From Acidobacteriota bacterium (lineage in GTDB: Bacteria; Acidobacteriota; Terriglobia; Bryobacterales; Bryobacteraceae), in contig VFZU01000050.1 in the NCBI GenBank assembly GCA_016870995.1, positions 1 to 38,862 on the forward strand: a stretch of DNA of 38,862 bases. Reading direction: 5' to 3'. Each line of letters opens with the position of its first letter. The first letter of the stretch is position 1. Below are positions 1,739-31,476 of the stretch, piece by piece. The notes below the pieces were generated by a model. That model was not told where the DNA came from. It saw only the letters and a program-made list of their open reading frames with translations, and made no database searches. Both the position numbers and the translations under genes were made by a program.

Positions 1739-3094
1739 TTAGCCACGCAACAGGGTCATCGCGTCAGAGAAGAGTTGGTCGGCGCGAGATTCAACCCTAC
1801 TTTCGACGGCAACCCGCAGAATTGGCTCTGTGTTGGAGGCACGCAAGTGAACCCAGCCGTCCTCAAGCAACAACTTCAACCCATCCGTACGCTCAAGTTG
1901 AGCTTCCGGATAGAGCTTTTCCATCCCAAGCATCAGTCCCCCCAGCTTGCCATGGGCAAACTGCACCTTGCCGCTGCGACGGAAGAATCGCGGCAGCGCC
2001 CGGTCCAAATCGCTCAACTTGATCTTTTCGCTGGCCATGCGGTCAAGCAACAGCGCCATTGCCGTGTAGCTATCCCGGCAAAGATGCGTCCCGGAGAAGA
2101 TCACTCCGCCGCTCGAGCCTTCCCCCCCGATCAATGCCTTCACGGCTCGCATGCGATCCACTACGTTTGCTTCGCCCACAGCCGTCCGGTACACGCGGCG
2201 GCCATGCTTTGCTGCAACTTCTTCCACGACATTCGATGTCGTCAGATTCACTGCGACGTCACCAGGAGCCTTAATCAAAGCTGATTCGATCGCGATCGCC
2301 AACATGTCATTGTTATCGAGCATCACGCCCAATTCGTCGCAAACGGCCAACCGGTCACCATCGGGATCCTGTCCAAATCCAATGTCACACTCGTGCGCTC
2401 GCACCAGCACCATCAGATCTCCCAGAGATTCCGGCTTAGGTTCTGCCTCCCTTGGGAACGACTTTGATGGGTCCACGTGAATCGCATGCAGATCGCAGCC
2501 CAGCACTTCTTCGAGAAACCAGACGCTCAGCTCAGACCCTGCGCCGTTCACGCCGTCAAGTGCCACGCGAAAGCGCCGCTGCCGAATTCGCTCAACATCC
2601 ACATGCTTGAGAACACGATTGATATGGCGCTTCCAGGGTGTTGTTTCGTCAACGGTCACCCCCAGCATCTCTTCATTCGTGGCGGCATTGAAGTCGCTTT
2701 GGTGAAACAGGTCAAGCAGCTCTGTACGCTCGTAGTGGTTAAAGAAAAGGCCCTCGCCATTAAACAATTTCAGAGCATTGTATTCGGCCGGATTGTGCGA
2801 AGCGGTGATTCCGATTCCACCAACTGCTCCCGTCTCGGCGATATAGATCTGCATTGTTGGCGTAGTCTGTACGCCCACCCTGACCACCTCACACCCGGCG
2901 GCGAGCAACCCACAGGCCACCGCATGTTCAATCATCGGCCCAGTAAAGCGGGTGTCGCGGCCCAATACGACGCGCCCCCGGCCCACATAGGCACCAAAAG
3001 CCTGGGCAAAATCTGCGGCGAGCAGTGGCGTAAGATACTCGCCCACCACGCCACGAACTCCAGAGACACCAACTTTCAGCTTGTGCTCACGCAT
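1739..3094 (-). CDS. Phosphohexomutase (phosphoglucosamine/phosphomannomutase family), canonical copy
   Basis: A 451-residue alpha-D-phosphohexomutase that moves phosphate between C6 and C1 of a hexose phosphate in the cytoplasm, supplying precursors for cell wall or surface glycans. All four signature sites are present: the phosphoserine loop TASHNP (Ser99), the metal-binding DPDGDR (243-248), the sugar-binding GEGSSGG (324-330) and the C-terminal phosphate loop RASNTEP (418-424). Length and motifs fit the archaeal-type GlmM/ManB branch better than classical bacterial GlmM, so the sugar (glucosamine, mannose or glucose) cannot be fixed from sequence. It overlaps the upstream paralogue by 8 bases, so the two are probably translationally coupled. 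The ECF sigma gene follows closely. Confidence 0.92.
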   Translation of the reverse strand: MREHKLKVGVSGVRGVVGEYLTPLLAADFAQAFGAYVGRGRVVLGRDTRFTGPMIEHAVACGLLAAGCEVVRVGVQTTPTMQIYIAETGAVGGIGITASHNPAEYNALKLFNGEGLFFNHYERTELLDLFHQSDFNAATNEEMLGVTVDETTPWKRHINRVLKHVDVERIRQRRFRVALDGVNGAGSELSVWFLEEVLGCDLHAIHVDPSKSFPREAEPKPESLGDLMVLVRAHECDIGFGQDPDGDRLAVCDELGVMLDNNDMLAIAIESALIKAPGDVAVNLTTSNVVEEVAAKHGRRVYRTAVGEANVVDRMRAVKALIGGEGSSGGVIFSGTHLCRDSYTAMALLLDRMASEKIKLSDLDRALPRFFRRSGKVQFAHGKLGGLMLGMEKLYPEAQLERTDGLKLLLEDGWVHLRASNTEPILRVAVESRVESRADQLFSDAMTLLRG

Positions 3095-4448
3095 AGCTTC
3101 TCACCATATCGAGCAGCTTCGACATCAAGCCTTCGGCGCTCCCTTCCCGCATCTCAGCAATCACGCGAACCACGGGCTCCGTATTTGAAACCCGAACGTG
3201 AAACCAGCCATTGTCGATGTCAACGCGCAAGCCATCCTGGGTGTCCATCTTCGCCCCGGCCCACTGGTCTTCGAGCTCAGTCATCAGCTCGGGGATTCTC
3301 TTGGCATCGAGGGAAACTTCGGCCTTGCGCATGTCGTAGCTGGGCATCCCTGCCAACAGTTTCTTCAAACTCGTGCCGCGCTGCCTGAGATGACTCGCCA
3401 GAGCAAGCAGACTCGCAATGCCGTCGTAAACGAACCGGAACTCCGGCAGCATCACCGCGCCCGTTCCTTCTCCCGCTACTGCGATCCTCTCGGCTGGGTA
3501 CATCGCCAACGCGTCCATTGCATGCTGGCGGCCAACCGGAACTCGCAACACTGTGCCACCATACCGTGACGCAACATCTTCAACCATCGAGGTTGTCGAG
3601 AGGTTTGTAATGATCATCCGGCCAGGCTGCCGCATGAGTTGATACTCGGCCAAAAGTGGCAGGATCATCTCTTCACTCACGACCTCACCGTCACCGCAGC
3701 AGACAGCAATCCGGTCGCTGTCCATGTCGAACAGAACCCCCATATCGCCTCCAATGGCCTGCACCACGGGGGCCAGTTGCAGCCCAACCGTCCGGGCATT
3801 GGTATTCGGAGTATGCGCGAAGGCCTTCGGCTCAAGCGTGGCATTGATCATCGTGATGTCGATCGGATGCCTTTCCTTCAGACGCTTGAGAATCAGGCTC
3901 GACAACCCCGAAGAACAATCGGCGACCAGCTTGAGCCCCCTCAACATTTCGAAGTCGAATACGTTTTCGAGATCGTTGATGTAACGCTCGATAGCTTCAT
4001 CGTCGAAGTGAAGCCGACCCACCTGAGTCCAGTCTCGAAAATCGAATTTTCTGAGGTGATAGATGTCAAGTAGCTCCGAGGCTTCGCCGCTTGAAAGGTA
4101 GGTCCCGTTCGAGCCCAAAAACTTCAACGCGTTCCATTCCGCATTGTTGTGAGAGGCCCCGATTGAGATTCCGCCCGCAGCATTCGTGCTCTGAATCGCA
4201 TGTTGCAGCACGGGCGTTGACGCTAGACCCAAATCAACTACATCCCGGCCGCTGGCCAGCAACGAAGCGACAATACCCTCTCTCAACATCACCGACGATG
4301 CCCTGGGGTCTCGCGCGATCATAATCGGTTCGCGACGATTCAAGAGCACACTGAAGGCGGCGGCGAACTCAAGCGCATGATGCGCCTTGAGACCAGGCCC
4401 AACAATGCCTCGCACACCGACGGTGCTGATGCGTAGTGAACTTGGCAT
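3087..4448 (-). CDS. Phosphohexomutase paralogue with altered active-site motifs
   Basis: A 453-residue member of the same family as its downstream neighbour, with the same four-domain order. The sites differ: the serine loop reads GASHNN (Ser99 kept, the usual Pro replaced by Asn), the metal loop reads DMDSDR (241-246; three Asp kept, Pro and Gly replaced), followed by GEGTGAVM and RVSNTEP. Catalytic Ser, metal ligands and phosphate loop are present, so it is probably active but perhaps on a different sugar or with another tuning. Start ATG at 4448 lies 6 bases after the CBM9-like gene; its end overlaps the second mutase by 8 bases. Annotation pipelines would probably call it phosphoglucosamine mutase or phosphomannomutase. 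Confidence 0.88.
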   Translation of the reverse strand: MPSSLRISTVGVRGIVGPGLKAHHALEFAAAFSVLLNRREPIMIARDPRASSVMLREGIVASLLASGRDVVDLGLASTPVLQHAIQSTNAAGGISIGASHNNAEWNALKFLGSNGTYLSSGEASELLDIYHLRKFDFRDWTQVGRLHFDDEAIERYINDLENVFDFEMLRGLKLVADCSSGLSSLILKRLKERHPIDITMINATLEPKAFAHTPNTNARTVGLQLAPVVQAIGGDMGVLFDMDSDRIAVCCGDGEVVSEEMILPLLAEYQLMRQPGRMIITNLSTTSMVEDVASRYGGTVLRVPVGRQHAMDALAMYPAERIAVAGEGTGAVMLPEFRFVYDGIASLLALASHLRQRGTSLKKLLAGMPSYDMRKAEVSLDAKRIPELMTELEDQWAGAKMDTQDGLRVDIDNGWFHVRVSNTEPVVRVIAEMREGSAEGLMSKLLDMVRSYA

Positions 4449-9400: not shown

Positions 9401-12400
9401 CTATCGAAGACTGATGTTGTGAGTGTCTAATGTCACTCCAAGAGCTTGTTCCAGCCGCGCGATCGCTTTATTGAAGTCGAGTCTCGCCACCAGGCTACGC
9501 CGTTGCGAATCCGCGTACTCGTTCTGGCGGGTAAGCACAAGGAAGTTGGTGCTCTCGCCTGTTTCGAACAAGCGCTGTTCGCTATCCAGTTTTTCTTTGG
9601 CTGCCTTCGTGCTTGCCTCTGCGGCCACGATTCGTTGCTCAGCCGTCCGGAGCGCCTGCATTGCGTTGCGAACTTCCGCACCGATTGCTTGCTCGGTCCG
9701 CGCTCGCTGCAACTCCAGGGTGCGCTCTGTCAGCTTCACCTGGGCAACCGTTTCTCTGGCTGCCCGGTTTCTCGCTGTCCAGTCGATCTGCAATCCAGCC
9801 TGCCAACTGGTGTAATTTTGTCCGAACAGGCTGCTCAGCGTTGTGCCGTAGCCCCCCACAAAAGCAGGTGGCACCAGTTGGCCACTACTACCGGGAAAGA
9901 ACGGATTCGGGGCCGGATTTCTTGCGCCGGCCAGGCCAGCCATCGTGTACCCGGCAGTGAGATTGGCACCAGGCAAAAGCTGATTGCGCGCAAGATCACT
10001 CTGAAACTCATTAGTTTCAAGACGCAACTTGAGATTCTTGAGCTCGGGCCGTTTAGAAATGGCACCTTGAATCGTCGCGGCGAGGTCCTCGGTTTGAGGT
10101 GGTGCGGAACTGCGCGTCTCCACCGGGATCACTTCATCGTTCCAGATCGATTGATCGCGCCCACCGGCGAGCATCCCTTTCAGATTGTTCTCGACTTCAG
10201 TTAACAACCCAATGCTCGAGTAGTAGGTATCCTGGCGACGTTCCAGTTCTGCCATTGCCGCGGAGAGTTCCACCGGCGCCAGCGTGCCTGCTTCAATCTG
10301 ACGCTTCGACCGTTCGTATTGATCGCGGGCCAGATCCACACTCAACTTCTTCACTTCGATGTCCTGCCGTGCGGCAACCAGATCCCAATAAGCCTGCGTC
10401 GCAAGTGTCACTACGGCAACCACCCGCAATTCGTAATCGGCCTCACTGACATCGATCTGCTTGCGCCGCAATCGAATCTGATTGCGGTCGTTATCGATCT
10501 TTCGGCCTCGCAGCAAGGGCTGCGTCAAGTTAATGCCCAGCGTAGATTGAGTAAAAGGATTCAAGCCACTGAACGGATTGCTCGTGCTGATCCGCGAGTT
10601 ATTGAAGGCGACGTCGACGCGCGCTCCGTTCCAAGGCGTGCGCTGGGAATACGTAAAATTGTTCGCGAAGTTACGATCCACCAAGCGCCCATCGGCAGCC
10701 TGCAGCGGGCTTGAGGTGGGCGTCACGTTGTAGCTCATGTTCGGCCGATACCCAAGCAGCGGATCCCAAACGCCAAACGTTTGCTTGTACTGGCTCCGCG
10801 AAAGAACGGTATTCGTCTTTTCTATCTGGAGATCCAGATTGTTGGCAAGCGCCATTTCAATCGCGTCCTTCAGCATCAACCGTTTCTGCTCTCCCGCCAC
10901 ACCAACACGGGCCGGATCAGCCGCCTGCGATACAACGACAAAAAGCATCATGCCAAGCAAGCCGGCGAATGCTTCTTTAATCGACCGGCGCTTGAACAAC
11001 CCGCCAATCCTCGAAAACAGCTTCCAGTTCGTCATGTCGTCAAACAGTGAATAAACGACTGGTGTAACCAGCAAGCTCAAGAGCAAGCACATCGTTTGGC
11101 CACCGATCACGACAATCGCTACGGTGCGCCGCGAACCCGCGCCTGCACCTCCACCGAGCGCGAGCGGGATCATACCCGCGACCAGCGCAGCCGTGGTCAT
11201 CAGAATCGGCCTGAGCCGATCTTCGCAACCCTTCAGAACTGCTGGCAGGCGCTCCAATCCTTCCGTGCGCAGCCGTTTGATGTGGTCCACCTGCAGAATC
11301 GAATTCTTCTTCACGATGCCAAAAAGCACCAGGATGCCGACCGACGTATAGATGATGTTGTAGTTTTCACCCGCGATCTTCAGGCTCAACAGTGCAAACG
11401 GCACACTGAGCGGCAAGCTCAACAGAATCGTGATCGGATCGAGGAAGCTCTCGAATTGCGCTGCAAGAATCATGTACATGAACACGAAGCAGAGCACGAA
11501 GGCAGCTACAAAGTTCACCGCTGCTTTGCCGAACTCTTTCGAGCGGCCCACCGTACCAGTCGCATACTGCGGAGGCAGATTCAGTTCGGCAACAATCTTC
11601 TGCGTGGCGTCGATAGCCTCAGACAGCGAACCGCCTTTGGCAATATTGGCCTGAATCAAAATCTGGCGCTGCCGGTTATAGCGGTCAATCGCCGAAGGCC
11701 CAGTGGCGTCCCTCAGGCTCGCCACATTGGATACTGGCACATTGCCAAGCGTAGTCGAGGGCACGAACAACCGGTTCAGTGCCTGCGGCGAAGTGCGGAA
11801 CTGCTTGTCTACGCGCAACTGCACGTCATAGCGGTCGTCTCCTTCGCGATACGTCGTTGCCTGATCGTCACCAGCCACAAGCGTCCTCAACGCCGATGCG
11901 ATACTGCTGACACTCACATTCAAATCAGCCGCTTTGTCGCGGTTGATGTCCACGCGCAACTCAGGCTTGCCAGGCTCGTAGGACGAATCGATATCGGCCA
12001 CACCAGGCACTTCATCGAGACGCTTCATGATCGCTCGTGAATAGCGCTCCAGCTGCGCAAGGTCTGGCCCCTGAATATAGAACTGATAGTCTCGATCGCT
12101 CGCACCACCAGAAATCAGCGCGGGCAACTGCACGCCGACAATCAAATCCTTGGGAAGCTTAGCCACGAGTTCGCGTGTCTTTTCCATCAACTGCTGTTGG
12201 GAATCCTTGCGTTCTGTCGGCTGTACCAACTGAACGATCACACTGCCACGATCGACGCGCTTTTGGAAATCGGCGCCAATCGTGGTCAGCAGATACTTCA
12301 ACCCAGGTAACTTCTTCAGTTCAGCCTCAAGCTGATCCATCGCCTTGGTGGTGCCTTCCAGCGAAGAGCCTGGCGGAGTGCGCAGCGTCACCTCGAAGTA

Positions 12401-14077
12401 GCTCTGGTCGTCGACGGGGAGAAAATCTTTGCCCATGCTGTTGAACAATGGCCCCGTCGTGTACATCACCACCAGCGAGACAACGACGATCACCCAACGA
12501 TGTTTCATGCTCCACTCAAGCAACCACATGTAGGGACGCGCGATGACTTTAAACAACAGCCCGTCTTTGGTGCTTGCGTCATGAGCCTTCGGCGCCAGCT
12601 TCAAATAGCGTGCCGACAGAGCAGGGGTGAGCGTGAAGCTGACGAGCAAGCTCACCATGATGGCGAACGCCGCCGTGAAGCCGAAGCTCGACATGAACCT
12701 TCCCACAATGCCGCTCATCAAGGCCACCGGCATAAACACCACCGCGAGACTTAGGGTAGTGGCCAACACGGCGAGCCCAATTTCTCGGGTTCCTTCGATG
12801 GCCGCCTCGATCGGCCCCATGCCTTTCTCTTCTTGAAAGCGGAAGATGTTTTCGAGCACAACGATCGCGTCGTCAATCACGATGCCCACCATCAACACCA
12901 GCGCCAGCATCGAGATCTGGTTCAAGGTGAAACCCATCAGGTTCATTAGCGTGTAGGTGGAAATGATTGAGGTCGGGATGGCGACGGCTGCGATCAGCGT
13001 AGCTCGCCAACTCCGGATGAACAGCAGCACGATAATCGCGGCGAATATCCCGCCCTCGATCAAGTGGGCCTGCACGGCTTCAAAGGCGCCTTGAATAAAG
13101 AAGCTCTGATCTCGTGAATAGTCCACCTGCAGGTCGCGCGGAATCAATCCCTCACGCTGCAAGGTGCCAATACGGTCCTTGAGGACAGCAATGACGTCTA
13201 GAGTGTTCGTACCGGCCTGCTTGCGGACTTCAAGCACCACCGCCGGCACGCCGTTGATCCTCGCCAAGGATCGCGGCTCTTGCACTCCGTCCACGACATG
13301 CCCAACATCACGCACCTTGATCGCCACGCCATTCGTGGTGCCGATCGTGATGTCAGCAAAGTCAGCTGGCTTCATCAGGCGTCCCAGCGTACGAAGACTG
13401 ACTTCGCGCGCGCCCTGATCCAGCCGTCCTCCGGGGATTTCAACATTCTGCGCCGCCAGCGCCAATCGGATCTGGTCCACGTTCAGGTTGTAGCTGTAGA
13501 GCTTTTCACCATCGAGAACCACTTGAATCTGCCGAGTCCGGTCGCCCACAAAGCGCACGTCGCCCACACCATTCAGGCTCTCGATGTTCTTCTTGATCAG
13601 GTCTTCAACCAGCTTGGTGGTCTCACGAATCTCGCGCGGTGATCTCACCACAATGCTGATGACGGGTGAGGCATCAGTTGCCACCTTCTGAATCACGGGC
13701 TGCTTGGCGTCCTTAGGCAACTGGTTCAGCACCTGGTTCACCTTGTCGCGCACTTCTTGGGCGGCCACGTCTCCATCCTTCTCCAGGGAGAACTGAATGG
13801 AAACTACCGAGTTTCCTTCACTCGAGCTCGAGCGAAGTTCGTCGATACCAGAGATCGTGTTTACCGCCTCTTCGATCCGCTTGCTGACCTGACTTTCTAC
13901 TTCCTCCGGCGCTGCTCCTGGCAATACGGTGGCAATCGTTACGAACGGGAACTCCACCTTCGGGAAGAAGTCCACGCCCAGCCGCCGGTAGGAATCAAGC
14001 CCCAATACCACCAGCGCCATAATCAGCATGGTGGCGAACACTGGCCGTTTGATACAAATTTCAGCGAGTTTCTGCAT
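9401..14077 (-). CDS. RND efflux pump fused to a TolC-like outer-membrane channel
   Basis: One open frame of 1558 codons. Residues 1-1015 are a complete HAE1/AcrB-type inner-membrane pump: N-terminal RPVFATMLIMALVVLG, TM4 proton-relay acids in GIVIDDAIVVLEN (Asp402, Asp403), the Lys of TM10 in FGIVKKNS (Lys923/924), and two large periplasmic loops. Residues 1066-1558 are a TolC/OMF domain: LMLKDAIEMALANNLDLQ, two coiled-coil stretches (VVTLATQAYWDLVAARQDIEV; AEQRIVAAEASTKAAKEKL) and the closing ARLEQALGV. Between them RRSIKEAFAGLLGMMLFVVVSQA-ADP (about 1030-1055) has the charge, hydrophobic core and A-x-A-like site of a signal peptide, so the chain could be cut there into two mature proteins. 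No stop, start-like Shine-Dalgarno or frame change is visible at the junction. The gene follows the adaptor lipoprotein by 9 bases in a tetR operon. Confidence 0.93.
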   Translation of the reverse strand: MQKLAEICIKRPVFATMLIMALVVLGLDSYRRLGVDFFPKVEFPFVTIATVLPGAAPEEVESQVSKRIEEAVNTISGIDELRSSSSEGNSVVSIQFSLEKDGDVAAQEVRDKVNQVLNQLPKDAKQPVIQKVATDASPVISIVVRSPREIRETTKLVEDLIKKNIESLNGVGDVRFVGDRTRQIQVVLDGEKLYSYNLNVDQIRLALAAQNVEIPGGRLDQGAREVSLRTLGRLMKPADFADITIGTTNGVAIKVRDVGHVVDGVQEPRSLARINGVPAVVLEVRKQAGTNTLDVIAVLKDRIGTLQREGLIPRDLQVDYSRDQSFFIQGAFEAVQAHLIEGGIFAAIIVLLFIRSWRATLIAAVAIPTSIISTYTLMNLMGFTLNQISMLALVLMVGIVIDDAIVVLENIFRFQEEKGMGPIEAAIEGTREIGLAVLATTLSLAVVFMPVALMSGIVGRFMSSFGFTAAFAIMVSLLVSFTLTPALSARYLKLAPKAHDASTKDGLLFKVIARPYMWLLEWSMKHRWVIVVVSLVVMYTTGPLFNSMGKDFLPVDDQSYFEVTLRTPPGSSLEGTTKAMDQLEAELKKLPGLKYLLTTIGADFQKRVDRGSVIVQLVQPTERKDSQQQLMEKTRELVAKLPKDLIVGVQLPALISGGASDRDYQFYIQGPDLAQLERYSRAIMKRLDEVPGVADIDSSYEPGKPELRVDINRDKAADLNVSVSSIASALRTLVAGDDQATTYREGDDRYDVQLRVDKQFRTSPQALNRLFVPSTTLGNVPVSNVASLRDATGPSAIDRYNRQRQILIQANIAKGGSLSEAIDATQKIVAELNLPPQYATGTVGRSKEFGKAAVNFVAAFVLCFVFMYMILAAQFESFLDPITILLSLPLSVPFALLSLKIAGENYNIIYTSVGILVLFGIVKKNSILQVDHIKRLRTEGLERLPAVLKGCEDRLRPILMTTAALVAGMIPLALGGGAGAGSRRTVAIVVIGGQTMCLLLSLLVTPVVYSLFDDMTNWKLFSRIGGLFKRRSIKEAFAGLLGMMLFVVVSQAADPARVGVAGEQKRLMLKDAIEMALANNLDLQIEKTNTVLSRSQYKQTFGVWDPLLGYRPNMSYNVTPTSSPLQAADGRLVDRNFANNFTYSQRTPWNGARVDVAFNNSRISTSNPFSGLNPFTQSTLGINLTQPLLRGRKIDNDRNQIRLRRKQIDVSEADYELRVVAVVTLATQAYWDLVAARQDIEVKKLSVDLARDQYERSKRQIEAGTLAPVELSAAMAELERRQDTYYSSIGLLTEVENNLKGMLAGGRDQSIWNDEVIPVETRSSAPPQTEDLAATIQGAISKRPELKNLKLRLETNEFQSDLARNQLLPGANLTAGYTMAGLAGARNPAPNPFFPGSSGQLVPPAFVGGYGTTLSSLFGQNYTSWQAGLQIDWTARNRAARETVAQVKLTERTLELQRARTEQAIGAEVRNAMQALRTAEQRIVAAEASTKAAKEKLDSEQRLFETGESTNFLVLTRQNEYADSQRRSLVARLDFNKAIARLEQALGVTLDTHNISLR

Positions 14078-14086
14078 GACGGGCTC

Positions 14087-15268
14087 CTAGAGCGTCTTCA
14101 CCGCGACACCATTGACAAGGCTCAGAAGATTACTGACTGCGATCGGCTCTCCGGCCTGGATCGCACCAGCCGGGGCCTCTGTCCAGCCCTCCACCTCGGC
14201 ACCAGGAGTGATGCGTACTTCGACAGCTTTACCGTTACGAATTACGAACACCTTGTTCAATCCCGCCACGGAATACACTGCATTGCGGGGCACCATGACG
14301 ATCGCGTCGCTCTTGCGCGTCACCAGCTTCACTTGCACGAAGCTGCCGGGACGCAACCGGCTGTCTGAAATCGCAATCTTCGATTCCGCGAGCAACGTAC
14401 GGTTTCTCGCATCGAAGGTAGGGTTCAACTTTTGAATCACAGCCTGGAATTCCTTGCCAGGCGCTGCATCGGTTGTAAAGCTCACAACACTTCCCTGACC
14501 GATCTGCGCCGAATAATTTTCGGGCACTTCCACGCGCAAACGAAGCGGGCTGGTCTTCACAAGAGTCGCTACGGGAGTGTTGTCTTTGATGTACTGCCCC
14601 GGGCTGATGAGCTTCGCGCTGATGCCGCCATCGAACGGAGCACGAATCACCGTATCGCCGAGTCGCTTGGTGGCAATCTCAAGATCCGCCTTCTGGGCTC
14701 GCAACTGAGCGATCAATCCGTTCATTTCATCGCGCGCAGCGTCGATGACAGCCTGACGCGCTTGCAGGGTCTTGCCTAGCTCTGTGGCTCTCTCCTTGGA
14801 GATGTCCCCACTCTGTACCAGCTTTGCCGCCGATTCGTACTTGGACTTCGCGTCATCGTAATTGGCTTGCGCCTGTCGCATCGCAGCGGTCGAAGTGGGA
14901 TAGGATTCCTCCGGGGTCTTCATACCCAGCCGCGCCGCAAGTTGGCCCACATTGGCCTTCGCGCGCTCCAGTTGCCATTCATACTCCCGCCGGTCCAGCT
15001 CAGCGATCACATCGCCCTTCTTAACCAGTTGGCCGAAATCCACCTTGAAACTCGAAATCCGCCCTTGGATCTCGAAACTCAGATTTACGGTTTCGTCGGC
15101 TTCGAGCGTGCCGGTCACACCAATCGACTTGTCGAGCGTCTTCGATACCGCCTGTTGCACCTTCACCTGAATTGCTTCAGGAGCTTTCGCCACAGGTGCC
15201 GCTTCTTGCTTTTTGAGGCATCCCGTCAACGCCAGAACGATTGCGAGGGTAATGATGATTGCTTGCAT
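14087..15268 (-). CDS. RND periplasmic adaptor (membrane fusion protein, HlyD family) lipoprotein
   Basis: A 393-residue adaptor linking inner-membrane pump and outer-membrane channel. The start at 15268 is chosen because it has a GGAAGG Shine-Dalgarno and gives a lipoprotein signal, MQAIIITLAIVLALTGC, with Cys17 as the lipidated residue; a 50-codon extension upstream lies within tetR in another frame. Then follow a lipoyl half (FEIQGRISSFKVDFGQLVKKGDVIAELD), a long coiled-coil hairpin (about 85-190, EYEWQLERAKANVGQL to AQLRAQKADLEIATKRL), the second lipoyl half (IRAPFDGGISAKLISPGQYI) and beta-barrel and membrane-proximal domains (LRPGSFVQVKLVTRK). It starts 2 bases after the tetR stop and ends 9 bases before the fused RND-TolC gene. 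Confidence 0.93.
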   Translation of the reverse strand: MQAIIITLAIVLALTGCLKKQEAAPVAKAPEAIQVKVQQAVSKTLDKSIGVTGTLEADETVNLSFEIQGRISSFKVDFGQLVKKGDVIAELDRREYEWQLERAKANVGQLAARLGMKTPEESYPTSTAAMRQAQANYDDAKSKYESAAKLVQSGDISKERATELGKTLQARQAVIDAARDEMNGLIAQLRAQKADLEIATKRLGDTVIRAPFDGGISAKLISPGQYIKDNTPVATLVKTSPLRLRVEVPENYSAQIGQGSVVSFTTDAAPGKEFQAVIQKLNPTFDARNRTLLAESKIAISDSRLRPGSFVQVKLVTRKSDAIVMVPRNAVYSVAGLNKVFVIRNGKAVEVRITPGAEVEGWTEAPAGAIQAGEPIAVSNLLSLVNGVAVKTL

Positions 15269-15270
15269 TT

Positions 15271-15888
15271 CTATACCTTCCGAATCCCGTTTAAAAATAA
15301 CTTCACCGATATACGCACCATCTCTTCGCGACACACGCTGTGGCAGATCGAAGAGCGAAATAAGATAGTCGACTGGCAATAATGTCCGATCGTTCCGCAG
15401 AAAGCTAACGCGGCACACAGCGGATTGACATCGAGAAACGCACCCTGTTCCATGCGCTTCTCGATATAACCAACAATCACTTCAATAAACGGCCGGGCCT
15501 GCTTGTCATGGAATTCCTCCATGAGTTCATGCCCTTCCAAATTGGAAAAGAATTTCAGCCGGATCAGCTCCGGCTTCAGTTCATGCCACTGGATCATGGC
15601 ATTCGCTAAATGAGTGAAGAATTGTTCATCGTCAGCAGATTCCGCCAGCCTCGACAATCCTTCAAGGGCATCGTGGTAATGCTGGTCTTTCGACTCCTCG
15701 ATAATTGCCGTATAGAGGTCTTTCTTGCTCGGAAAGTGTTGATATAAAACGGGTTCGCTAACGCCAATACTGGCTGCGAGTTCGCGCGTGGTGACCCCGC
15801 GAAAGCCTCGCTCCGAAAAAAGCCGGATTGCAGACGCGAGAATCGCCGACCGTCTGTCTTGACTGCTGAGTCTTGTGGATCCACCCAT
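15271..15888 (-). CDS. TetR-family transcriptional regulator
   Basis: A 205-residue one-component regulator. The N-terminal helix-turn-helix is typical: RRSAILASAIRLFSERGFRGVTTRELAASIGVSEPVLYQHFPSKKDLYTAI (about 12-62). The C-terminal ligand-binding part is helical and not assignable; it contains a Cys-rich stretch near the end (CGTIGHYCQSTILFRSSICHSVC), which is unusual and might matter for sensing. The gene heads the operon with the adaptor and RND-TolC fusion, so it most likely represses the efflux operon and itself, with the palindrome just upstream of its start as operator. Confidence 0.93.
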   Translation of the reverse strand: MGGSTRLSSQDRRSAILASAIRLFSERGFRGVTTRELAASIGVSEPVLYQHFPSKKDLYTAIIEESKDQHYHDALEGLSRLAESADDEQFFTHLANAMIQWHELKPELIRLKFFSNLEGHELMEEFHDKQARPFIEVIVGYIEKRMEQGAFLDVNPLCAALAFCGTIGHYCQSTILFRSSICHSVCREEMVRISVKLFLNGIRKV

Positions 15889-25108: not shown

Positions 25109-26158
25109 TTGCTTTCTCAAGATCTGTCACCTGCTTCGCGGGCCGGCCACTGGCTCCTCCACTCCGGCATTCAATCCCCCGACGGCGGTGTTGCACGCTA
25201 CCGCTTGACTGACTCCCGCGAAAACCTGCCCTCATCCACTGAGATCACCGGCTACGCCGTTTCCGCTTTTTGCCACCTGTTTGAAAAGACCGGCGACGAA
25301 CAATTTCTCGCTGCCGCTCGCCTCTCCGGCGACTACCTCACCCACAAAGCCTGGGATGCCGAATCCCGCTCCATGCCCTTCGAGATCCACAAAGGCTCTC
25401 GCTATAGCTACTACTTCGACTGCGGCATCATCGCGCGGGGCCTACTCCGGCTCTATCGCATCACCAACCATTCTCCCTACCTCGATCGCGCACGCGACAT
25501 CGGCATGGCCATGGAGCGAGACTTCAAGGGGATTCGTGGCTTCCACCCCATCGTTCTCCTTCCTTGCAAGAGCCCTGAAGAATACTCAATCTGGTGGAGC
25601 CGCATGCCCGGCGCATTCCAACTCAAATCCGCCCTCGCCTGGCGCGATCTCGGCGAAGTCACCTCAGACCAACACTTCCTCGACCTCTACGAAGGCGTAC
25701 TGCAGTTCTCCCTGGAGCACTATGCAGAAACTCTCGACAACGAAACCGATGAACTGAAAAAGATGGATCGCCTCCATGCCTGGGCTTACTTTCTCGAAGG
25801 CCTTCAGCCCGTCAAGGACCGTGAACCCATCCAGTACCTGCTGCGCTCGGCCCTCGCCCACGGCGAAAAGCTCCGCGAACAACTCGCTCCGCGCTTCCTG
25901 CGCAGCGACGTTTGCGCTCAACTCCTCCGCATCAAGCTCCTCATGGGCGGCGCACCCAACGAAGGCGAACTCATTCGAATCGAAGCTTTTCAATACCGCT
26001 CCGAAGACCCCACCCTCGATGGCGGGTTCGGCTTCGGACGCCGCGACGGTGCTATGACCCCACACGTCAACCCCGTCTCCACCGCATTCTGCCTACAAGC
26101 CCTCGACTACGCATCACAGAACGGAATCTCCAGTGCCGACTGGCGCAAACTCATCTGA
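25109..26158 (+). CDS. Predicted alpha-helical toroid protein of a glycan pathway
   Basis: A 349-residue, mostly helical cytoplasmic protein (no signal peptide). Repeating helix pairs with aromatic and acidic residues between them (SSTEITGYAVSAFCHLFEKTGDEQFLAAARLSGDYL; YYFDCGIIARGLLRLYRITNHSPYLDRARDIGMAM; KKMDRLHAWAYFLEGL; VNPVSTAFCLQALDYA) fit an (alpha/alpha)-barrel as in six-hairpin glycosidases, sugar epimerases or glycan lyases. I cannot name the reaction. The frame starts with TTG 25109, the only start giving the conserved-looking N-terminus; an ATG at 25104 is in another frame. It overlaps the glycosyltransferase gene by 26 bases, so the two probably work on the same glycan. Confidence 0.7.
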   Translation: MLSQDLSPASRAGHWLLHSGIQSPDGGVARYRLTDSRENLPSSTEITGYAVSAFCHLFEKTGDEQFLAAARLSGDYLTHKAWDAESRSMPFEIHKGSRYSYYFDCGIIARGLLRLYRITNHSPYLDRARDIGMAMERDFKGIRGFHPIVLLPCKSPEEYSIWWSRMPGAFQLKSALAWRDLGEVTSDQHFLDLYEGVLQFSLEHYAETLDNETDELKKMDRLHAWAYFLEGLQPVKDREPIQYLLRSALAHGEKLREQLAPRFLRSDVCAQLLRIKLLMGGAPNEGELIRIEAFQYRSEDPTLDGGFGFGRRDGAMTPHVNPVSTAFCLQALDYASQNGISSADWRKLI

Positions 26159-28802
26159 CATCAAACTCGCCTTCGCCAGTTGCTCCCAAGACTTGATCGA
26201 TCAATTCGTGGAGGAGGTCAAGAAAGTCGGAGACACCAAACTTCCAGTTTTTCTTGTCTCCGAGTTTGCACCCCACGAACCCTGCCATTGGATCCCCTGG
26301 CACCCCTTCGAAGATCTTGAAACCAACCGCCAGCGCATCCTCTGGCACATCGGCTCCGAGCGCTGCATCCGTTTCAACATGATCCTTCTGCAGCCCAAAA
26401 TACCCTATTGGGCTATGCGTTTCCTCGGACTGCGAATCTGCCCTACCCGTACCTATCTTTTCAACGAAAACTATGGCCACTTCCCTCTGCATCCCCGAGG
26501 CATTGCGACCATTCTCCGCCATGCCACTTGGCGGCTCAAGAACCTCATCCGTTATCAAACAACTCCCGGCGGCAAGCTTTACACCATCCTTTGTCGCATG
26601 GCGCATCCTCTCGCCTGGGAGCGTCCCCTTCTCTATCGCCTCGCCCGCCGCCGCAAGCCGCTGGAAACCAGGCCGCTCCGATCCGAACCCACACCAGCAC
26701 TCCAGCCCGGCATCACCGTCGTGATTCCTTCCCGTCAGGGCTATGATCTCCTCAAAACCCTGCTCCCCCAAATCCAGCCCGGCATCGTCAGCAAGGTGAC
26801 GGTTGTCGACAACGGATCCGACGATGAAACCGCCTCCCTTGCCTCTGGCTTCGTTCAAGTCCTCACCTCCGACCACCCTCTCAGCTTCGCCGCCGCGGTA
26901 AACATGGGCATCCGCGCCTCCCGCACCACTCACACCTGCCTGCTCAATAACGACATGGTCCTCGAGCCCGGTTTCTTCGAAGAGCTCTACAAAGCCTTCG
27001 ACAGGACTCCAGACCTTTTCTGCGCCACAGCCCAGATCTTCATGCCTGAAGGCAAGCGGCGCGAAGAAACCGGCAAAGCAAACTACAAACCAACGGGTCT
27101 CCGCGATTTCCCTCTACGCTGCGACACGCCCATCGAAGGCGAAAACGATACCCCCGTCTTCTACGGCTCCGGCGGATGCTCGCTGTACGACACGGCGAAA
27201 CTCCTCGCCATCGGTTGCTTCAAAGAGGCCTTCCGCCCCGCATACGTCGAAGACCTCGACACTGGCTGGCGCGGCTGGCAACAAGGCTGGCCCACTGTCT
27301 TTGTCTCCGGCGCAAAGGTCATCCATCACCACCGTTCCACGACCGCCCGCTTCCTTGCCGCCTCCTCGATCGAACTCGCCATCGAGCAGAATCTGCTTCG
27401 CTGGATCCAGTCGAGCGTAGCCACTCCAGGCGTCTTTCAAGATCTTTGGCAGCGCGCGGTCAACCGCATCAACCTGCTGGCCGCTGTGCCAGAACCCGCC
27501 CCCATCGCGATGTACGCCCTGCGCTTCGCCGCCTTCGAAAAACCATACTTCAAGTGGGACCGCCCCGCGCAGCCCAAAATCAACGAGCACGAAATCCTCG
27601 CCCTCGGCTGCGGCGACCTCGCCTGCTTCCCTGGCAGCGCCTCGCCGGACAAACCTCGCCTCCTCATCGCCACCTGCTACATGCCCTTCCCGCTGTCTCA
27701 CGGCGGCGCGGTCCGCATGTTCAACCTGATGCGCGAAGCCGCCAAGGATTATTCTCTGGTCCTCCTCAGCTTTGTCGACGAATTCATAACACCCGCGCCC
27801 GAGCTCACCGCCCTTTGCGTCGAAATTCTGCAGGTCAAACGCGAGGGCTCCCACTACCGCCGTTCCACGCCCACACCCAAGGTGGTCGATGATTTCGCCA
27901 GCAACACTTTCGAGGCCGCCATCCGCTGGGTCCAGCGTAAATGGCACCCCGAAATCGCCCAGCTCGAATTCACCCAGATGGCTCAATACGCCAAAGCCTG
28001 CCACCCGGCAAAGACGATCCTGGTCGAACACGACATTACCCTCGACCTCTACTCGCAGCTCCTTCGCGACAAAGACGATTTCGATCTCCGCCTCGAACTC
28101 GAAAAGTGGAACAACTTCGAGCGCCAGGCCTGGCGTGACGTTGATTCCACCGTTGTCATGTCCGGCAAGGACAGCGCCACGGTCACAGGCGCCAAACGCG
28201 TTGCCGTACTCGAGAACGGCGTCGATCTCGACCGCTTCCAACCCAGTTCTACTCCGCCCGAGCCCCGCAGTCTTCTCTTCATCGGCAGCCTCGCGCACCT
28301 CCCCAACCTGATGGCCCTCGCCTGGTTCCTCAACGAAGTCTGGCCCCAACTCAAAGACACCGAACTCCACATCATCGCCGGGCGCAATCCGCAATACTAC
28401 GTCGACTTCTACAAAGACCGCGTCACGATCAACCTCAATCAACAGAACATCGAGCTCGAGGCCTTCGTCTCCGACGTGCGCCCTGCCTATGAAAAAGCCG
28501 AAGTCGTCATCGCGCCTCTGCTCGCGAGCGCCGGCACCAACATCAAGATCATGGAGGCCATGGCCTGCGGCAAAGCCATCGTCTCCACCCCCGGCGGCGT
28601 CAACGGCCTCGACCTCGAACCCGGCAAAGACTTTCTTCTAGCCCCAACCTCCGCCGAATTCGCCAAAGCCATCGAAGAGCTTCAATCGAACGCCCCACTC
28701 CGCAACCAGCTCGAACAGCAATCCCGCCGCACCGTCGAAGCCCAATACAGCTGGACCGCGATCGGCGAAAAACAACGCGCCCTCTACCGCTCGCTGGCTT
28801 GA
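26133..28802 (+). CDS. Fused GT2-GT4 glycosyltransferase
   Basis: An 889-residue protein with two transferase units. Residues 1-190 are an extra N-terminal region (NMILLQPKIPYWAMRFLGLRICPTR) of unknown role. Residues 193-430 are a GT-A family 2 unit: ITVVIPSRQGYDLL, VVDNGSDDET (226-230), LLNNDMV (Asp-containing 272-275) and the acceptor-side YVEDLDTGWRGWQQGW. Residues 540-889 are a GT-B family 4 unit: RLLIATCYMPFPLSHGGAVR, VLENGVDLDRF, LLFIGSLAHLPN, and the donor-site ASAGTNIKIMEAMACGKAIVSTPGGVNGL. It likely adds two sugars in sequence to an O-antigen or exopolysaccharide precursor. The start is GTG 26133, inside the end of the upstream gene; its end overlaps the convergent DUF2141 gene by 19 bases. 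Confidence 0.9.
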   Translation: MPTGANSSDIKLAFASCSQDLIDQFVEEVKKVGDTKLPVFLVSEFAPHEPCHWIPWHPFEDLETNRQRILWHIGSERCIRFNMILLQPKIPYWAMRFLGLRICPTRTYLFNENYGHFPLHPRGIATILRHATWRLKNLIRYQTTPGGKLYTILCRMAHPLAWERPLLYRLARRRKPLETRPLRSEPTPALQPGITVVIPSRQGYDLLKTLLPQIQPGIVSKVTVVDNGSDDETASLASGFVQVLTSDHPLSFAAAVNMGIRASRTTHTCLLNNDMVLEPGFFEELYKAFDRTPDLFCATAQIFMPEGKRREETGKANYKPTGLRDFPLRCDTPIEGENDTPVFYGSGGCSLYDTAKLLAIGCFKEAFRPAYVEDLDTGWRGWQQGWPTVFVSGAKVIHHHRSTTARFLAASSIELAIEQNLLRWIQSSVATPGVFQDLWQRAVNRINLLAAVPEPAPIAMYALRFAAFEKPYFKWDRPAQPKINEHEILALGCGDLACFPGSASPDKPRLLIATCYMPFPLSHGGAVRMFNLMREAAKDYSLVLLSFVDEFITPAPELTALCVEILQVKREGSHYRRSTPTPKVVDDFASNTFEAAIRWVQRKWHPEIAQLEFTQMAQYAKACHPAKTILVEHDITLDLYSQLLRDKDDFDLRLELEKWNNFERQAWRDVDSTVVMSGKDSATVTGAKRVAVLENGVDLDRFQPSSTPPEPRSLLFIGSLAHLPNLMALAWFLNEVWPQLKDTELHIIAGRNPQYYVDFYKDRVTINLNQQNIELEAFVSDVRPAYEKAEVVIAPLLASAGTNIKIMEAMACGKAIVSTPGGVNGLDLEPGKDFLLAPTSAEFAKAIEELQSNAPLRNQLEQQSRRTVEAQYSWTAIGEKQRALYRSLA

Positions 28803-29316: not shown

Positions 29317-31476
29317 TTGATTCGCCCCACTCCAATCTTTCTCTGCGTTGGTTTGTTCACGCTCCTACTGCTGGTCCCGCTTCGCAATTCCCGCGTCGAC
29401 AACACAGCCGAAGCTTGGCTACCCACAAGCTCTCCGGCTCTCATATCACTCAAGGACTTCCAGGCGAAATTCGGCGATGGCTCGCTCTTGCTCGCGCGCG
29501 TTGAAGGCAGCGCACTCGCTCAACAGTTACCCGAGTGGCAACGCCTGACCTCGCGCCTCCGCGACCTTCCCGAAGTTGAGGCCGTCTACCCTCCTCGATT
29601 CGTCGAAGAATCCACCTCGGACCCAGGCCCCCCACCTCCCATCACCGCCTACCTCAGCAGTCCCGATCTCCGCCACGCCGCCATTCTGATTCTGCCGCGC
29701 ACGGCTCTCTCCGTGGAGCGGCAACGCTCCCTGCTCGATCAAGTCACCGCCATCCTCTCTGGCTCTCCCCTCGGAGCATTCGGGCTCGCCGGCACAATCG
29801 TCATCACAAACGACCTCGACATCGGCTCGCGTCAATCCCTTTCCACGATCGGCCCCATCGTCGCCCTCGCCATGTGCCTCGTCCTCTACTGGGCCACTCG
29901 TGAGTGGCGTGGCGTGCTGGCCGCCATTGCCGTGATTACTTGTTCTTCAGTTTGGGCCATGGGTCTGCTCGCCTGGTTCGATAGGCCTCTCAACCTCGTT
30001 GTCTCCACCATCCCCGCCATCCTCGCCGTCGTCACCGTCACGCAGGCCATGCACATCCTGGCCTTCTTCCACAGCTTCCCCGTGGAACTCGCACCCGCAG
30101 CCGCATGGCGGCAGGCTCTCCGCGGCATCCTGCGGCCTAGCGTCTTGTGCACCATCACGACATCCGCCGGTTTCGCCGCCCTCGCCACTTCGGAGATTCC
30201 TCCCGTACGCGACCTCGGCATCTTCACAGCCATCGGCGTTCTCTCCACATCAATCCTCTGCTTTACCCTGTTTCCTGCCCTACTCTCCTTGAGCAGTAAA
30301 GTCGCCCCACGCGGCCCGAGTGCGCAAAAGTTCTGGACCCTCGATCGCGCCTCCCGCTACACCGCCTGGCTCGGCAGGCATCGCACTGCCATCATCCTCA
30401 TCACTACGGTGGCCTCGATTGCCGCCCTCGTCGGCATGTCCAAAATCCGCATCGAATCCCACATCCTTGAGTTCTTCCCAGCCTCACACCGCGTCCCAGC
30501 CAACTATCACTCGATCGAGGACCGCCTCATGGGCATGACGCCCATCGACATCGTCTTCTCCGGCCCCCGCAAAATCCTGCTCTCGGACAAAGCCCTCAAC
30601 GAGTATCGCGACTTTTTCACCACGACTCTCAAAACCGAACCGCTGGCCCGCCAGGTCGTCTCGATCCTCCTCGAGCCCACCCGCGAGGCCACTCAGGAAT
30701 TCGTCCTCTCCCCAGCGGAACTCCGCGAGGCTTTCACGGAAGAAGAACTACCCGCCCTCGCCAAGCGCTTCCTGCTCGTCGAGGGAGACCGGATCACCTT
30801 ACGTACAACCATCCTCACGACCACCAGTTCTTCCAATGCCGTCTTCGAGTTGATCGAACGCCTTCAAAAACGCCTGGCAAACCACTCCCTCGGCAGCGCG
30901 GTTTCAGGCGAAGTCGCCGGCCCCATACCATTGTTCATTGAAGGTCAGGTCCTTCTCCTTCGCACGCAAATCGAATCCTTTGCCATCGCACTCACCATCA
31001 CCGCGTTGGTCGTACTTTTGGGCTTTCGATCCTGGTGGGTGGCGACCATCGCACTGGCCCCCAACGCAATTCCCATCTCAATGACACTCGGCTTCATGGG
31101 TTGGACAAACATCGCCTTGAACACAGCCACCGTCACGGTTGCGGGCATCGCCCTTGGGCTGATCATCGACGATACGATTCACTTCCTATACCGCTACCGG
31201 CTCGCCCGCGCTCAAATGGAAACACCCCAGGCCATCGCCTTCGCCCTCTTCACAATGGGGAAAGCAGCCGTGATCAGCAGCGGTGCGGTCACCGGCGGCT
31301 TCGCCCTGTTCGCGCTCTCTCCCTTCCGCCCCACGGCCTACTTCGGCCTCCTCATCGCCATCACAGCCGCAACGGCTCTGGCTTGCGACCTCCTGCTGCT
31401 ACCCGCCGTGCTGATGCGATCTAAAGCTTCCGTGCCACCGCCACATAATCCAGCCCCCCAAAGAAACCCTCTTTGA
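29317..31476 (+). CDS. RND-superfamily exporter of the MMPL type
   Basis: A 719-residue membrane protein with the duplicated MMPL/SSD layout: TM1 near the N-terminus (FLCVGLFTLLLLVPL), a first periplasmic loop (30-170), a TM2-6 bundle (GPIVALAMCLVLYW; STIPAILAVVTVTQAMHILAFFHSF), TM7 (TAIILITTVASIAALVGM), a second loop (about 380-550) and a final TM bundle with GIALGLIIDDTIHFLYRYRLA, whose Asp pair is the proton-relay position. Such proteins export lipids or hopanoids to the outer membrane. The first TM4 equivalent reads VTVTQAMHILAF and lacks the Asp. The start is TTG 29317. The 3' end overlaps the convergent methyltransferase gene by 56 bases. Confidence 0.88.
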   Translation: MIRPTPIFLCVGLFTLLLLVPLRNSRVDNTAEAWLPTSSPALISLKDFQAKFGDGSLLLARVEGSALAQQLPEWQRLTSRLRDLPEVEAVYPPRFVEESTSDPGPPPPITAYLSSPDLRHAAILILPRTALSVERQRSLLDQVTAILSGSPLGAFGLAGTIVITNDLDIGSRQSLSTIGPIVALAMCLVLYWATREWRGVLAAIAVITCSSVWAMGLLAWFDRPLNLVVSTIPAILAVVTVTQAMHILAFFHSFPVELAPAAAWRQALRGILRPSVLCTITTSAGFAALATSEIPPVRDLGIFTAIGVLSTSILCFTLFPALLSLSSKVAPRGPSAQKFWTLDRASRYTAWLGRHRTAIILITTVASIAALVGMSKIRIESHILEFFPASHRVPANYHSIEDRLMGMTPIDIVFSGPRKILLSDKALNEYRDFFTTTLKTEPLARQVVSILLEPTREATQEFVLSPAELREAFTEEELPALAKRFLLVEGDRITLRTTILTTTSSSNAVFELIERLQKRLANHSLGSAVSGEVAGPIPLFIEGQVLLLRTQIESFAIALTITALVVLLGFRSWWVATIALAPNAIPISMTLGFMGWTNIALNTATVTVAGIALGLIIDDTIHFLYRYRLARAQMETPQAIAFALFTMGKAAVISSGAVTGGFALFALSPFRPTAYFGLLIAITAATALACDLLLLPAVLMRSKASVPPPHNPAPQRNPL

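Follow-up and report, generated by a model that had tools for sequence, protein, structure and literature searches.

A single, uninterrupted open frame of 1558 residues, from ATG to stop codon on the minus strand (14077..9401), encodes an RND-type pump and an outer-membrane factor (OMF) as one chain in a bacterium of the Bryobacteraceae (Acidobacteriota); the whole stretch of DNA analysed, 38,862 nucleotides in length, is referred to below as the window. An earlier note on this DNA, which gave no strand, had described an AcrB-type pump running without a stop into an OMF; this description is borne out by the 1558-residue frame with its ACR_tran match and two OEP stretches, and the minus-strand orientation is added here. 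The fusion is genuine and is neither a chance product nor an assembly slip. The sequence makes it highly probable that the fusion is a polyprotein in which an internal signal peptide allows signal peptidase I to cut after Ala1052, yielding an inner-membrane pump and an OMF.

The RND part (residues 1–1015; 11033..14077, minus strand) is HAE-1/MdtB-like. The Pfam family ACR_tran matches residues 5–1012 with 909.5 bits over its full length (profile positions 2–1020 of 1021), and the nearest solved structure by sequence is that of MdtB of E. coli (PDB 9lyq; E = 1.5e-143). Asp402, Asp403, Lys923, Lys924, Arg954 and Thr961 are invariant in all 105 aligned RND parts (69 fused and 36 split); we take Asp402, Asp403, Lys923/Lys924, Arg954 and Thr961 to be the equivalents of the proton-relay residues of AcrB. 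The RND part scores below the cut-off of the NCBIfam multidrug subfamily (best model NF033617, 877.2 bits versus 1250) and below that of the CusA/CzcA heavy-metal model TIGR00914 (439.6 bits versus 701.45). Judged by its profile scores, it is a relative of the multidrug permease models that lies outside the NF033617 subfamily. The genome itself (5.72 Mb in 215 contigs) contains 13 ACR_tran matches, and only the fusion sits in a frame of more than 1400 residues. Three other matches (C143:6701-9694, C127:11538-12746 and C167:4836-6677) contain in-frame stops, and two of these are also partial; the genome thus seems to carry decaying or fragmented RND pumps alongside intact ones.

The predicted mature OMF comprises residues 1053–1558 (9404..10921, minus strand). 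It is recognized by two Pfam OEP stretches (130.5 bits, with the best at 1335–1547); by sequence, its one match in the PDB is CmeC, and this match is weak. A model of the OMF and the linker, built from seven sequences, served for secondary structure and fold class only. In this low-confidence model, the succession of strands and long helices is that expected of the OMF family. The top Foldseek matches of the weak OMF model (mean pLDDT 56.9, pTM 0.41) are channels of the TolC family, led by TolC itself (PDB 7ng8; E = 2.7e-14, TM-score 0.41 by query length). The OMF is proposed to be located as a trimer in the outer membrane. In the fused loci L129, L130, L135, L177 and L178, the predicted cleavage site is followed by ∼18–41 additional residues, frequently rich in Pro, Ala or Gln, ahead of the OMF homology.

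Two genes lie directly upstream of the fusion on the same strand. A periplasmic adaptor (MFP; 14087..15268, minus strand) with a lipobox-like LTGC motif ends 9 nt ahead of the fusion ATG and scores 217.7 bits against TIGR01730 (cut-off 94.9) when the longer frame of 443 residues is used; the start at 15268 (MQAII), which gives 393 residues, was chosen by us as the likely one. A TetR-type regulator (15271..15888, minus strand; PF00440, 63.3 bits) has its stop 2 nt from the adaptor ATG. Since both genes lie upstream on the same strand, we presume an operon in the order regulator, adaptor, pump–channel fusion. Elsewhere in the window, tandem phosphoglucosamine/phosphomannomutase genes with a small overlap are found on the minus strand (1739–3094 and 3087–4448); TIGR03990 (archaeal-type GlmM) is the best model for both, with the first above and the second below its cut-off. 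An MMPL/sterol-sensing-type membrane protein is encoded on the plus strand at 29317–31476, near a gene (26133–28802) with glycosyltransferase domains of two kinds.

The family was searched with a 532-residue query that begins at residue 1027 of the fusion. Matches were obtained in 234 of 237 Bryobacteraceae genomes (E up to 1e-20), and at least 65 of the 237 contain matching open frames of 1500 residues or more, some of them on large contigs of up to 9.48 Mb. The earlier note had proposed a search in other Acidobacteriota as a means of excluding a lost stop codon, and the long frames in these genomes provide that exclusion. Within the genus, the whole fused frame is present in six of eight genomes. 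In a seventh (G052, locus L067), the pair is fused in a frame of 885 residues that leaves the contig end, and in the eighth (G051, locus L070) the frame is interrupted within the RND part, with RND homology ending near residue 958 of 1015 and the junction and OMF intact; this break, seen in a single MAG, reflects either a deletion or an error of assembly. Outside the Bryobacteraceae, fused frames occur in at least four genomes of family f29 and in one of family f22, and inspection of the loci (L174–L178) confirmed them as fused.

The same pair also occurs as two adjacent genes. We fetched 100 regions from the family, with preference for fused frames, and 20 from the wider phylum; the classified set also took in the window and five other loci. 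A total of 127 loci were examined and 126 have an OMF match (L173 lacks one): 74 are fused, 38 are split and 14, including L070, have no qualifying RND frame next to the OMF match. These numbers do not represent a frequency, because best-match loci were chosen with a preference for fused frames. They do show that relatives carry both forms, so the pair is not always encoded by two genes, which the earlier note had named as an outcome that would count against the fusion. Where the RND part is complete and over 1.3 kb of upstream sequence is available, the RND frame is preceded by an adaptor frame that ends no more than 300 nt away; this holds for all 64 fused and all 29 split loci of this kind.

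Trees of the RND and OMF parts were calculated for 105 loci (69 fused and 36 split), seven of the 112 having been dropped for want of a full RND part. These quick trees each require 16 changes between the fused and split states, counted in either direction, and at least 11 of the 16 are forced by starred branches; a single change of state is not supported. In the sister loci L083 (split) and L136 (fused), the RND parts are identical at 896 of 1013 positions, and in their alignment the stop and OMF start of the split form are gone from the fused one. Because the two forms swap, their function is most likely the same, and such frequent swapping in one operon context argues for the same end products, which would require cleavage of the fused chain.

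The segment at which this cleavage is predicted lies between the two parts of the chain (residues 1031–1052; 10922..10987, minus strand). The earlier note had placed a signal-peptide-like segment at about residues 1030–1055, and hydropathy and site pattern locate it there: it runs from Arg1031 to Ser1050-Gln1051-Ala1052, followed by the predicted cut and Ala1053-Asp1054-Pro1055. By simple patterns, an n-region, a hydrophobic core and a cleavage-like site are all present. In split loci the OMF gene begins after the RND stop with an ordinary signal peptide (e.g. MNKLGILAAVLCLPLAWAQ in L089), and a comparable hydrophobic signal is found mid-chain in fused loci (e.g. LAATSLLLLSIFSASAQ in L081). 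At the level of sequence, these comparisons establish the fused junction as equivalent to the N-terminal signal of the split orthologues. All 73 fused junctions in this comparison and 32 of 38 split ones carry a net positive charge ahead of the core. Of the eight residues that precede the uncharged run, a median of three are Lys or Arg in the fused form versus one in the split form; the pump's cytoplasmic tail seems to be the source of the positive charge of the fused n-region. The uncharged run spans 13–24 residues (median 18) in fused loci, compared with a median of 14 in split loci.

Cleavage-like sites were compared with those in 897 hydrophobic segments from RND parts, used as controls, and with shuffled tails as a second comparison. 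The first, narrow site pattern, which omitted Leu, Ile and Cys at −3, was dropped, since fused junctions resembled shuffled tails (34/73 fused, 22/38 split and 117/897 controls; shuffled-tail mean 32.2/73). A relaxed pattern, [AVSTGLIC]-x-[AGS]-[QAED] after the core, matches 72/74 fused loci, 38/38 split loci and 315/897 controls, but separates fused junctions poorly from shuffled tails (mean 46.7 of 74). The window site, SQA/A, satisfies this pattern but lacks Gln at +1; the two fused exceptions (L127 and L131) read VMQAQ, with Met at −3. A narrower pattern, [AVSTGLICM]-x-[AG]-Q after the core, separates well (60/74 fused, 32/38 split, 111/897 controls and 16.5/74 shuffled tails), with a Fisher p of ∼2e-36 for 60/74 versus 111/897; this value and the counts overstate the case, because the rows are related and not independent. 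Both the relaxed and the narrower patterns are post hoc, having been revised after the outcome of the first. The Bacteroidota fusions described below, which are independent of the setting of the patterns, have x-A-Q behind a hydrophobic stretch in all seven examined.

These features suggest how two proteins could arise from one chain. AcrB-type pumps have their C-terminus in the cytoplasm. The RND part would insert in this orientation, and its short positive tail would act as the n-region of the internal signal peptide (residues ∼1031–1052), the hydrophobic segment of which would reopen the translocon and restart export. The OMF part would enter the periplasm, and a cut by signal peptidase I after Ala1052 would leave the spent signal on the pump as a thirteenth helix and release a 506-residue OMF to the outer membrane. 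Pump and channel would be produced in a 1:1 ratio and, with the adaptor encoded upstream, would make up an ordinary tripartite efflux pump from two cistrons. We infer the cleavage, the localization, the stoichiometry and the substrate class. The genome contains four matches to the signal peptidase I family (Peptidase_S26, PF10502), one of them with an in-frame stop.

A separate OMF could also come from an internal ribosome start in the same frame, irrespective of the fate of the long chain, which we consider quite improbable. In the window, the candidate is an in-frame TTG at Leu1027 (10997..10999, minus strand) with AGGA 8 nt upstream, which would yield a signal peptide beginning M-FKRRSIKEAFAGLLGMMLFVVVSQA; this start is not generally conserved. 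From the end of the RND part to the core, 58 of 74 fused loci do have at least one in-frame NTG (ATG in 25), but an NTG with a Shine–Dalgarno-like match of 4 nt is present in only seven of the 74, the window among them. Internal initiation is therefore rejected as a general mechanism, and a recognizable OMF start is generally missing from the fused loci.

The earlier note had left two outcomes side by side: cleavage at the junction, for which its retention in many fused lineages gives good support, and a tether across the periplasm, against which linker length and OMF geometry speak. It is quite improbable that the long chain stays uncut even in part, in which case each pump protomer would be covalently bound to its own channel protomer and either the two membranes would be unusually close or the OMF would be an assembly intermediate awaiting a late cleavage. 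A wholly uncut chain that tethers pump and channel is, in our estimate, very improbable. A passage of PMC8277102 describes both pump and channel as trimers, which suits such a tether, and the fused hydrophobic segments, with their uncharged runs of 13–24 residues (median 18), are sufficient for a membrane anchor; their greater length than in the split form could favour an anchor that is not cut. The persistence of cleavage-like sites, however, would be needless in an uncut chain. In the model, 17 residues (1052–1068), reaching at most ∼60 Å, separate the hydrophobic helix (to residue 1051) from the first OMF helix (from residue 1069), an estimate that is a rough guide because the pLDDT is below 50 there. 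An RND pump has a periplasmic height of ∼70 Å of its own, and this comes on top of the distance set by an OprM-type channel. According to section 6.2 of PMC8277102, the periplasmic part of OprM is ∼100 Å long and helix H1 sits at its middle, within the equatorial domain, and a passage of PMC5404916 describes the contact between TolC and the adaptor as tip to tip. The short linker and the OMF geometry thus disfavour an uncut tether.

We give practically no credence to the view that the frame stems from an error of sequencing or assembly, or that the gene is decaying: the same-genus contig L070, broken inside its RND part, would fit such a view, but the long frame recurs in at least 65 of the 237 genomes of the family, some on megabase contigs, and the proton-relay equivalents are unchanged in 105 of 105 RND parts, so that a lost stop or an artefact is ruled out at the family level by family-wide presence.

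If the cleaved polyprotein is the correct reading, one chain can supply both a pump for the inner membrane and a channel for the outer membrane, each of which still reaches its destination, and the arrangement has appeared and vanished repeatedly within one family and is present in the Bacteroidota too. The fusion would then offer a natural test system for internal signal peptides that follow a polytopic protein and for the co-translational delivery of an outer-membrane protein, as well as a test of whether a fixed 1:1 ratio of pump to channel is favoured for a pump with a dedicated channel.

Among the closest known systems are the split tripartite pumps of the Bryobacteraceae, which have orthologous parts in the same gene order (adaptor, RND, OMF). 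Their OMF, unlike that of the fused form, has its own start and an N-terminal signal peptide, and the distance from the RND stop to the OMF homology is 42–141 nt in one set and up to 538 nt in others. MdtABC and AcrAB–TolC of E. coli are related through the RND part, nearest to MdtB in the PDB, and through the OMF model, which matches TolC; unlike the fusion, they have separate genes for pump and channel, and TolC is common to several pumps. A precedent for the processing is the cytochrome b/c1 precursor of Bradyrhizobium (fbcH), in which a polytopic and an exported protein are made as one precursor that is cut at an internal signal peptide; these proteins are unrelated to the pump–channel fusion, and both products remain in the inner membrane. 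In the open-access literature searched, we found no paper on internal signal peptides in polyproteins and none on the cytochrome b/c1 precursor, and recognized none describing a natural RND–OMF fusion in either Acidobacteriota or Bacteroidota.

The architecture has a counterpart in the annotated CusA/CzcA heavy-metal RND–OMF fusions of the Bacteroidota, which have the same domain order (e.g. WP_182411467.1 of Adhaeribacter radiodurans and ADB42723.1 of Spirosoma linguale). Our sample consists of plasmids only: in 52 records a single region matches 80% or more of the query, and seven of these were fetched. All seven are single frames (1446–1469 residues) with a hydrophobic junction segment ending in x-A-Q, of the same kind as in the window, and ACR_tran and two OEP stretches were found in the three that were scanned. 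These three belong to the heavy-metal class, with TIGR00914 scores of 1204.7–1207.8 bits (cut-off 701.45), whereas the window reaches 439.6. The adaptor gene lies downstream in six of the seven regions and is absent from the listing of L201, whereas in the window it lies upstream. The Bacteroidota counterpart is convergent. What we consider new here, on the evidence of sequence comparison, is an HAE-1-like RND–OMF polyprotein of the Acidobacteriota that has switched repeatedly between the fused and split states and has a conserved junction resembling an internal signal peptide.
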